DNA of 64,000 nucleotides from Spirochaetota bacterium (GTDB taxonomy: Bacteria; Spirochaetota; Brachyspiria; Brachyspirales; JACRPF01), in contig JACRPF010000015.1 of the NCBI GenBank assembly GCA_016214035.1, positions 186,001-250,000 on the forward strand, read 5' to 3'. Numbering within the stretch: the first letter of the stretch is position 1; each line of letters begins with the position of its first letter. The notes beneath the pieces were generated by a model. That model did no database searches and was not told where the DNA came from. It worked only from the letters and a program-made list of their open reading frames with translations. The translations under genes were made by a program, and so were the position numbers. This document shows positions 47,954 through 51,407 of the stretch, one piece after another.

Positions 47954-48738
47954 TCAGTTCCTTCTCTGCGAAAATAACCATTCCCACATGGCCGGTTCAT
48001 CACATGCCTTCGTCCAACTGTCGTGACCCGTGGCCGGATATTCGGTGTATTTCACAATGCCGCCCGCCTTGATGACAGCCTCCGTGAGATCGCGGGAATA
48101 CTGGACCTTAACATTCGGGTCTTCGGCCCCGTGAAAGACCCACAGGGGCACCCCGGTCATTTTGGGGGCGTCGGCAACGTCCCAGGCGCCGCATATCGGC
48201 ACGGCAGCGGCAAAAAGCTGAGGATACCTCGCGACGGCGCCCCAGGTTCCCACCCCGCCCATGGATTGGCCGGTGATATAGATTCGCGAGGGGTCGATAG
48301 ATTCCTTCTCAATCAAATCCTGCACTGCTTCGATGAGAACGGAAAGTTTCTCCGGCGGATTATCCGGGCGTCCGGGCCGTTTGAGTGATGCCGTGTGGGC
48401 CAAACGAGCGGTCTGTCCGCCTCAGCCGCCAGGACGAACACGGGATATTTTTCACGCATCGGACTGCGCGACAGTATCGTGCATGCGCGCGCTTCCCCCG
48501 GGCCTGACCCGTGCATTGCGATGAGGAGGGGATATTTTTCGCCTTCCGTGACGTGAAGCGGTGCCAGCCAGCCGTATTTCAATTCGCCTTCACCCGCGCC
48601 TTTGAAAACCCTTGGTTCGAAATTCTCGGGATAGTGCTTACTGCGGGCCGTTGCCGCCACACTTCCTTGCCGCGGGTCAACCCCGGCCGCCTGACTCATC
48701 GCGGTTAAGGCGGCATAGAGAATCATTTTTCTTATCAT
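47954..48738 (-). pseudogene. Exported esterase (PHB depolymerase/feruloyl-esterase-like) with frameshift
   Basis: Two overlapping frames encode one protein. The upstream frame (to 48400) gives a signal peptide (MIRKMILYAALTAMSQAAG) and PLLIAMHGSGPGE and ends FVLAAEADRPLVW; the downstream frame continues HTASLKRPGRPDNPPEKLS, YITGQSMGGVGTW with the catalytic Ser and FHGAEDPNVKVQY, ATGHDSW with the His. The join at 48397-48402 is explained by loss of one G in a TGGGCCC context. Either the gene is a recent pseudogene or there is one sequencing error. No translational slippage signal is evident. Confidence 0.8.
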
Positions 48739-48786
48739 AAAAGCTACTATAATATCACCGCGATACCGCGGCAATATACCGCATGA

Positions 48787-49106: not shown

Positions 49107-49660
49107 CGGGCTCCGGGTGGAGGTGTTACGGGCGCCCGGGAATATTGTCCGGGCGCCGGCGGAACGCCGCTATTCACGCGTGAAGATACTTTCTTCGAGC
49201 TCGAAGATGCCGCCGGTGCACGCGCCGGACTCTCCGGAACGTGCGAAGAATACCCGGGCACGCGAAAAGACACCCGGCGCCGGGAGAAGACAGCACGGCG
49301 CGCGTGAAGATACCCCGGGCGCGCCGGAAGATGATGCGGGCGCGCGTTCCGGACACTCCGGTGCGTGTTCCGAAGCCTCCGGAACGCGGGAAGCATGCCC
49401 GGCGCCGTGCGAAATGATATCTTCGAGCTCGAAGAAATTATCTTCTACCGCGGAGAAGTTCCGGGCGCCGGCGCCGGAACCATCTTCCCGCTGGAATAGT
49501 GTTCCGTCACGTGTGAATATGATATCTTCGCGGGTTATTTATGTGTCTTCCGGCGTGAATAGTGTGTCTTCGAAAGCGCCGAAATATCCGTCGACAGGGC
49601 CGGGAACTGCTTCGAACGGGAACAACGTAAAAGCGAATGTGGAAAATATAATAGTCATCA
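49107..49660. repeat. Palindrome-dense noncoding island
   Basis: About 550 bases are built from short, varied, mostly self-complementary words: GGCGCC and CCGGGCGCC, TCCGGA, GCGCGC, GATATC with TCTTC, and the 14-base palindrome CTTCGAGCTCGAAG at both 49193-49206 and 49421-49434. A perfect 9-base stem lies at 49131-49139/49149-49157. Words follow each other at roughly 12-24 base intervals without a strict period. Reading frames are open in several phases on both strands, but their composition is that of the repeats. It lies between the transposase remnant and a strong stem-loop. Function unknown. Confidence 0.6.
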
Positions 49661-49802: not shown

Positions 49803-49859
49803 GCACCCCGCGACCCGTTCATACTCCTGCGCACCGGAGTAGTACGAATCGCGGGGTGC
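49803..49859. other. Long stem-loop, 57 bases
   Basis: GCACCCCGCGA at 49803-49813 pairs perfectly with TCGCGGGGTGC at 49849-49859, and inside it CATACTCC pairs with GGAGTAGTACG around an eight-base loop. It lies 22 bases beyond the stop of the gene at 49882 on its downstream side. No clear T-run follows on the minus strand, so it may be a processing or stabilising hairpin rather than a classical terminator. Confidence 0.6.
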
Positions 49860-49881: not shown

Positions 49882-50253
49882 TTATGCTGCATCTTTCACG
49901 GTGTCGTCGGCGTTTTTCCGCGCTTTGCGGGAGATCCTGCTCCGCAGGCGTGCGGCCTGTTTCGCGATCTCGGTGTCGTTCCCGAGTGCGCCCATAGCTC
50001 CGTTGAGCTTAAACGATGCGCTCCGGTATGCGGCATTCATGGCTTCCTGTGTTGCCGCGGTGGTGTCGCGCAGAAGCGCCTTGAGCGCATTATGTGCGGC
50101 CTCCGCTTTTACCGTGTCGGTTGTCCGGTTTTGCAGCTCGGTGATCCAGTTGTCCGCATCAACGCCTTTCACCGCAAGGGCGTCTCTGTTCTTTGCGAGG
50201 AATTCAATCACTCCTTCGCAAAATCCAATCGTCTGAGTCTTTGTGAGTGCCAT
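49882..50253 (-). CDS. Small helical protein of unknown function
   Basis: A 123-residue, Ala- and Lys-rich, almost wholly helical soluble protein (KNRDALAVKGVDADNWITEL, AAHNALKALLRDTTAATQEA, RLRSRISRKARKNADD). AGGAGGTG gives it one of the strongest ribosome sites in the window, which suggests high expression. The basic C-terminal part could bind nucleic acid. No family is recognised. It is isolated: a long stem-loop follows it and repeats lie upstream. Confidence 0.7.
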   Translation of the reverse strand: MALTKTQTIGFCEGVIEFLAKNRDALAVKGVDADNWITELQNRTTDTVKAEAAHNALKALLRDTTAATQEAMNAAYRSASFKLNGAMGALGNDTEIAKQAARLRSRISRKARKNADDTVKDAA

Positions 50254-50567
50254 AAAGCACCTCCTCGTTTTATTTTTGTAATGATCATGAAAAAAATCAT
50301 CACGTGCGCTTGACTTTTCTTCTTGACCTTACGACAATATATACGAAAAGGTGTTGCAGTTACGGATCTTTTTCGATATAGTTCTCTGAATATATACAGT
50401 TTCAACAAACAGCCACTCATTGTCATTGCGAGCCCGCAGGGCGAAGCAATCTGTCTCCATGCTTTGCGGATTGCTTCGTCGCCGAGGTACTGCTCCTCGC
50501 AATGATGCGGGCTGGATTTTGATGCTATATCTCAGGGATGACAGAGATTCTATGAAAGGGGAAAACT
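50254..50567. other. Intergenic region with promoter-like motifs and a dispersed repeat
   Basis: Between divergent genes. It holds A/T-rich promoter-like stretches (two TTGAC boxes at about 50308-50326), then the palindromic repeat at 50419-50507, and a GGGG ribosome site just before 50568. No gene is visible. Confidence 0.5.
50419..50507. repeat. Dispersed palindromic repeat (TCATTGCGAG family)
   Basis: TCATTGCGAG at 50423-50432 is the exact reverse complement of CTCGCAATGA at 50496-50505, and nested inside GCGAAGCAATC (50441-50451) pairs with GATTGCTTCGTCGC (50469-50482). Repeats with these same words are scattered in many unrelated bacterial genomes and behave as MITE- or REP-like elements. 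Confidence 0.75.
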
Positions 50568-51407
50568 ATGGGCGCCACACACATAACGCCGCTTGACGAC
50601 ATCACCCTCATCAACGGCATCCTTCACAACAACATGAAATGCTATCGTCTTTTCCAAAGCCGGTATTTCAACTACATTAAACATCTTTTCAGCCGCTGGA
50701 TAAACGATGCCTCCGACGCCGAAGAACTGTCCTGCGATGTGATGATGAAAGTGATAACCACCATCGACCGGTTCGATGCGGCAAAGGGAAATATGCGCCT
50801 GTGGATCTACGTCATCGCCATCAATACGAGGAACGACTATCTCCGCAAACTCGCCGCCCGTGAGAAAGAAGCGAAAACAGTATCGCTCGATGAACCTGTC
50901 AACACCGGCAGCGATATGCTCCGCATCGATTTTCTTGTGGACACGAGTATGGACAGCTCTGAATCGTCATCATCTTCTGCATATACGTCCGATCCGGCTC
51001 TTCGGGCCGCGCAGGAAGTCATCAAAGGGCTCTCCGCCGACACCCGCTATATACTTCAGATGCATTCCGACGGCTATACCTCGTCTGAAATAGCCGAAAC
51101 CGTTCACAAACCAGAAGGCACCATCCGGAGTATCTGCTCGCGCATCAGGAAAGCAATTCGTGCGGCGTATGAGAACGTTCTGACACGTGATGTTCCGGCT
51201 GCAGAAGATGCCGTGATTACCACGAATAACGAACCGGCGGATGAATGTGACGTACACACCGCGCAGAGAAAGACAATGATGCGGTTGGTGAGCCTGCCGA
51301 TCTACGAGCCAATATTTGTTGAGATGCGAATCAGGCCCGCAGTCACCATCATATGTATACTGCTTTCATATTTCGGAGCGGTGTACAAGCGCACGGCAGC
51401 AGCTTGA
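50568..51407 (+). CDS. ECF-type sigma factor with Ser-rich linker and hydrophobic C-terminal tail
   Basis: A 279-residue protein. Region 2 is at about 25-95 (DASDAEELSCDVMMKVITTI, LWIYVIAINTRNDYLRK) and region 4 at about 145-200 (LSADTRYILQMHSDGYTSSE, HKPEGTIRSICSRIRKAIR). The linker between them is Ser-rich (DSSESSSSSAYTS). A further 75 residues follow region 4 and end with a hydrophobic stretch (VTIICILLSYFGAVY), possibly a membrane anchor or a regulatory tail. GGGG lies seven bases upstream of the ATG. No anti-sigma gene is adjacent, which may fit a self-controlled factor. Confidence 0.8.
   Translation: MGATHITPLDDITLINGILHNNMKCYRLFQSRYFNYIKHLFSRWINDASDAEELSCDVMMKVITTIDRFDAAKGNMRLWIYVIAINTRNDYLRKLAAREKEAKTVSLDEPVNTGSDMLRIDFLVDTSMDSSESSSSSAYTSDPALRAAQEVIKGLSADTRYILQMHSDGYTSSEIAETVHKPEGTIRSICSRIRKAIRAAYENVLTRDVPAAEDAVITTNNEPADECDVHTAQRKTMMRLVSLPIYEPIFVEMRIRPAVTIICILLSYFGAVYKRTAAA

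Follow-up and report, generated by a model that had tools for sequence, protein, structure and literature searches.

Plasmid iterons and partition arrays of the parS/parC type are tandem repeats of about two helical turns that adjoin the gene for a small protein. REP/BIME elements, which are associated with RAYT transposases, are intergenic palindromic repeats that form several families per genome and are linked to a protein family. In TIGR-Tas systems, an array located up- or downstream of a protein gene is transcribed and processed, and in some clades it contains variable palindromic stem-loops (PMC12045711). Here we analyzed a palindrome-dense island at positions 49107-49660 of the window, i.e. 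the whole 64,000-nucleotide stretch of DNA under study. The island is a non-coding 21-bp dyad array that forms part of a recurrent gene-array pair with a small helical protein of the MALT family (“MALT” being a working name used here, from the protein’s first residues). The features of the locus are:

49114..49650, no strand assigned: diverged tandem array of ~25 units of 21 bp, a few of 19-20 bp, identified by autocorrelation, cyclic profile segmentation, unit listing and grammar search
49803..49859, minus strand: inverted repeat with 16-nt arms, 88% complementary, between the MALT gene and the array
49882..50253, minus strand: MALT gene, encoding a basic, all-helical protein of 123 aa with no Pfam family; 17 paralogs in the genome
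50328..50333, minus strand: CGTAAG, conserved in the upstream alignment of MALT genes
50340..50357, minus strand: promoter-like element GCAACACCTTTTCGTATA, conserved upstream of MALT
50568..51407, plus strand: divergent sigma-70 gene with regions 2 and 4; ~12 paralogs in the genome

Like a TIGR-Tas locus, the MALT locus has a tandem array adjoining one protein gene and a repeat sequence that varies by locus (PMC12045711). However, TIGR-Tas arrays have 36-nt units that include spacers and box C/D motifs, and their partner is a Nop-domain protein, whereas here 21-bp units accompany a protein of 100-130 aa that had no Pfam domain match; Pfam scans of MALT proteins returned no Nop family, and the period of 20-21 bp does not correspond to 36-nt dual-spacer units. 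With REP/BIME elements the arrays share their intergenic palindromic nature, the presence of several families per genome and the link to a protein family, but they have a strict tandem period of 20-21 bp and no shared tag sequence, and no RAYT (Y1 transposase-like) protein was present in Pfam scans of neighbouring genes and MALT proteins. The working principle that we propose below for the MALT array is similar to that of iterons and parS/parC-type arrays; unlike in these, the units are unconserved in sequence, chromosomal and multicopy, and no ParA or replication-initiator neighbour was identified at MALT arrays. CRISPR arrays combine conserved repeats with unrelated spacers of similar size, whereas the units here are continuous, with matches at lag 21 and its multiples. 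In type III toxin-antitoxin (ToxIN) systems the repeat RNA shares the transcript of a ToxN-type toxin; MALT, in contrast, is all-helical without a Pfam match, and its array appears, by sequence, to lie outside the gene’s transcript. No single open frame conserved across copies, such as a protein-coding tandem repeat would have, was found. A known RNA family was likewise rejected, as the arrays had no Rfam match. The original remark that no known named class looks like the island comes close, in that the array fits none of the named classes tested here.

The enrichment in palindromes that had first drawn attention to the island was borne out. Between 49107 and 49660 we counted 32 six-base palindromes, compared to a mean of 14 and a maximum of 24 in 500 dinucleotide shuffles, the highest count among the 554-bp segments sampled in the window, as well as seven palindromic 10-mers where 1.0 was expected. 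A palindrome described earlier as a repeated 14-mer does occur twice, at 49192 and 49420, but is 16 bp long (TCTTCGAGCTCGAAGA). The claim that these words follow no strict period, however, did not hold: autocorrelation gave a self-match of 48% at lag 21 (z 11.4) with further peaks at lags 42, 63, 84, 105 and 126, and segmentation with a cyclic 21-state profile resolved ~25 back-to-back units at 49114-49650, with just a few of 19-20 bp. At a threshold of 0.50, 21-bp periodicity within the window was confined to the island, and scanning control periods across the window found no stretch. Each unit contains an inner dyad and follows the grammar TTC-N6-GAA-N9 or GG/CC variants of it, and the array is non-coding. 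The suggestion of a decayed hairpin array comes close, in that this is a diverged array of dyad units, but the array is periodic, and the sharp difference in composition proved to be a real but mild one, with a GC content of 0.55-0.59 in the island and ~0.51-0.52 nearby. The proposed RNA-folding check gave a fold stronger than that of shuffled sequences on both strands (z -5.2 and -6.9), and the 216-codon frame of the island, for which a protein-family match had been raised as the counter-case, had none. A cruciform or a structured RNA is a possible nature of the island, while a recombination or packaging site is unsupported, phage or viral relatives of the MALT family not having been found. 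The most informative fact about the island is its partnership with the gene at 49882-50253, which lies outside the coordinates originally considered.

A search for similar islands, also suggested at the outset, was positive both in this genome (5.2 Mb, 22 contigs) and in its relatives, where further arrays were found. Two diverged copies of the island are present in the genome, at C1:218574 (81%) and C21:225234 (75%). Searching for three consecutive TTC-N6-GAA-N9 units with at most 2 mismatches gave 42 matches, compared to 2 for the reversed pattern, and also revealed arrays of other sequence. There are 17 MALT genes in the genome, and a 21-bp array was located within ~0.6 kb, upstream or downstream, in 15 of the 17 loci; at the two remaining ones, C22:187118 retains a single unit, GGGGGCAGTCGTGCATCCCC, and at C6 the contig start interrupts the gene. 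Of the MALT genes themselves, two (C19 and C12:132697) are damaged or truncated. Array sequences vary by locus, e.g. GGGGCGGTCACGCATCCCCGT, GTCCGCACGACCTTGCGGGAA and AACGAGACAGCTCGGCAAGGC, with a constant period and usually an inner dyad. Some arrays consist of near-identical units, and sequence varies among units even inside one array. In one case, sister arrays that are otherwise nearly identical differ by exactly one 20-bp unit. Furthermore, a sample of 400 kb, chosen arbitrarily from this genome, contained ~4 non-coding arrays besides coding heptad genes; arrays without MALT (orphan arrays) are common, and we estimate that there are perhaps 30-50 of them in the genome. Several contigs terminate inside arrays. 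Near-identical 21-bp arrays were observed at the contig ends C1:1-482 and C12:326139-326320, and at C15:96676-96836 and C16:1-241, which indicates that the assembly broke within long arrays and that these ends may adjoin.

We also analyzed MALT and its arrays in other genomes. Relatives found by a MALT profile search came from G001, a different genus of the same family, and from a second family of the phylum, and a divergent MALT member used as query found Treponema saccharophilum pTS2 (WP_002705223.1), Riemerella and further genomes of the phylum, which is taken from these matches to be Spirochaetota. The family is patchy: depending on the query, 11-13 of the 393 genomes of the phylum have it. 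About ten other genomes of the phylum, Treponema saccharophilum among them, repeat the gene-array pairing: at a strict threshold, 16 of the 22 MALT loci in other genomes have an array of period 20-21 within 1 kb, at a looser one 18 do, and one more locus is cut by a contig end. Random DNA of the same genomes (~346 kb) contained one comparable array once CRISPR, coding and masked stretches had been set aside by inspection; a CRISPR array (lag 63) in this control scan, at L191:277-548 (G190), was set aside. In G001, the closest relative of the window MALT (73% identity) is followed by an inverted repeat, then TTC-N6-GAA units and then the contig end, as read by eye. Another MALT of this genome, at C1:277026, is 75% identical to that on G001:C45, and their arrays are related too. 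Riemerella has a MALT-type gene with an unconvincing array, and no clear array was found at the weak relative G174:C139. Over loci of unrelated sequence, the period was maintained at 20 to 21. Plasmid matches to MALT were restricted to Riemerella and T. saccharophilum. A phage or viral origin was rejected, since a search for MALT relatives in phages and viral contigs found none.

For MALT proteins AlphaFold predicted long hairpins of helices (pLDDT 87.6 and 92.3), with no matches in the PDB and no known DNA-binding fold, and Pfam scans gave nothing convincing. Most MALT proteins are basic; some Treponema-type ones are near neutral. The family is apparently related to the NCBIfam PQLLE family protein (PQLLE_fam, NF052641), which was matched by 9 of 11 Treponema-type relatives with a best E of 2e-9. 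However, NCBIfam gave no other match for MALT proteins, and all of these fall short of the curated cut-off, which is 80 bits (one Treponema-type member reached 28.6 bits); only 1 of the 17 members of A3 matches at all, and the window MALT does not match. The sole true PQLLE_fam protein of this genome, found by family at C13:119521 with a score of 192, also has an array, of period 20.75 bp and 280 bp downstream of it, and this is the most independent test of the pairing. PQLLE_fam has no recorded function, and no relevant paper on it was found.

The window array is ~230 bp from the MALT gene, with the inverted repeat between the two. This inverted repeat is probably the transcription terminator of MALT, and several other loci have a similar hairpin plus T-run downstream of their MALT gene. 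On the other side of the gene, the element GCAACACCTTTTCGTATA...CGTAAG, which precedes many MALT genes, had 13 matches in the genome, most of them at MALT loci, and 0 in the control. We infer that CGTAAG is a candidate ECF-type -10, with GCAACA as the -35 and an 18-nt spacer. Nine of the sigma-70 paralogs form divergent pairs with MALT genes. Downstream arrays are generally located beyond the terminator-like hairpin of MALT and upstream arrays before its promoter-like element, a placement suggesting that the array is probably outside the MALT transcript.

Within units, the agreement between dyad arms exceeded that of permuted units, with a Stouffer z of 5.9 for 28 arrays and of 4.4 for 13 arrays, three arrays being common to both sets and non-independent homologous arrays inflating the pooled z; the null was unit permutation with phase and drift re-optimised each time. 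Dyad covariation was non-significant in many single arrays. Dyad mismatches had no clear strand bias after composition correction, and what looked like an excess of G-T in relatives (59 vs 25) was mostly gone once composition was corrected. Some arrays, at L178:1810-2090 (G064) and L184:1900-2200 (G382), have a higher order of 42 bp, where every second unit bears the dyad or pairs with the one after it.

Our best explanation, which we put forward tentatively, is that the array serves the neighbouring protein as a DNA platform with a two-helical-turn spacing. The array would function as DNA, with a unit spacing of two helical turns that places all dyads on the same side of the helix, and the protein, directly or via a partner, would build a repeated nucleoprotein complex on it. 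Every MALT paralog would keep its own array, growing and shrinking by whole units; in this genome the divergent sigma factor would probably switch MALT on via the shared promoter element (ECF-type control), and the gene-array pair would have multiplied to 17 loci plus orphan arrays. Consistent with this are the linkage in 15/17 own and 16/22 foreign loci, the PQLLE_fam array, the constant period, the dyad agreement without clear strand bias, the array’s probable position outside the transcript, the one-unit difference between sister arrays, the orthologous grammar beside the closest relative in another genus and the mostly basic proteins. Against it stand the variation of unit sequence inside arrays, which disfavours sequence-specific binding, as well as the common orphan arrays, the dyad covariation that is non-significant in many single arrays and pooled to a z inflated by homologous arrays, a model without a known DNA-binding fold and some near-neutral proteins. 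The main rival, which we regard as unlikely, holds that the array is transcribed from its own promoter into a hairpin-array RNA that is bound by MALT or cut into units (guide-like or sponge-like). The strong folding of the island and the variable yet complementary arms would fit such an RNA, as would the precedent of TIGR-Tas arrays, which are transcribed and processed beside a protein gene, some with variable palindromic stem-loops (PMC12045711); but G-U asymmetry is not clear after composition correction, the arrays have no Rfam family and are separated from MALT by terminators or promoters, and an RNA offers no reason for the 20-21 period.

Copy change by unit, arrays of near-identical units, orphan arrays and whole array blocks in diverged copies (e.g. 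C1:218574 and C21:225234) could also arise if the arrays were functionless minisatellites expanding by slippage, their proximity to MALT reflecting the insertion or duplication history of a MALT-sigma cassette. We consider this improbable: unit length is fixed at 20-21 despite unrelated sequence, the array persists next to the gene family in different genera and families of the phylum, and the dyads are preserved. It is scarcely credible that the array encodes or formerly encoded a heptad-repeat protein with 7 codons per unit, even though 21 is divisible by 3 and several arrays have open frames. Units of 19-20 bp shift the frame, TAA stops interrupt the F-x-x-E frame of the C21:36.6k array, there is no family match, heptads vary between loci, 20-bp arrays occur and the genuine coding heptad genes of this genome look unlike the arrays; a protein-coding heptad repeat was rejected on the shifted or stopped frames. 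Returning to the locus as a whole, we think it probable that it belongs to a class of bacterial loci not yet described, where a small helical protein has its own non-coding two-helical-turn dyad array and the layout, not the sequence, is conserved across spirochaete genera, be it a nucleoprotein platform or a new RNA-array system. The novelty lies in the gene-array pairing, the protein family itself having a distant named relative in PQLLE_fam; we found no paper on this pairing, in a literature coverage that was incomplete, and an earlier description may exist. A repeat with constant unit length and free sequence, found beside one gene family in one genome after another, is outside the repeat classes tested here, and through the pairing a small protein family of unknown function acquires a concrete partner in DNA.

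Several further observations were made. Between the MALT and sigma genes, the window has an inverted repeat at 50424-50510, of the type TCATTGCGAGCCCGCAGGGCGAAGCAATC...GATTGCTTCG...CTCGCAATGA, which looks like a dispersed palindromic element; similar sequence was found upstream of MALT at C19 and C1:557. At 47954-48774 there are two overlapping minus-strand ORFs of 149 and 153 aa, the downstream one matching an alpha/beta-hydrolase (Peptidase_S9), and the pair looks like a single gene that a frameshift has divided. The element GCAACAC...CGTATA was also present ahead of genes for proteins beginning like “LRGRIGNIVFCKWKG” at L169 (C14:109314), L170 (C16:201922) and L110 (C1:519325), and these proteins are a possible second target family of the same sigma factor. 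Finally, a ZMP/ZTP riboswitch (RF01750, 49.7 bits) lies downstream of the MALT gene at C2:83989, a few hundred bases away, at L098:4676-4757.
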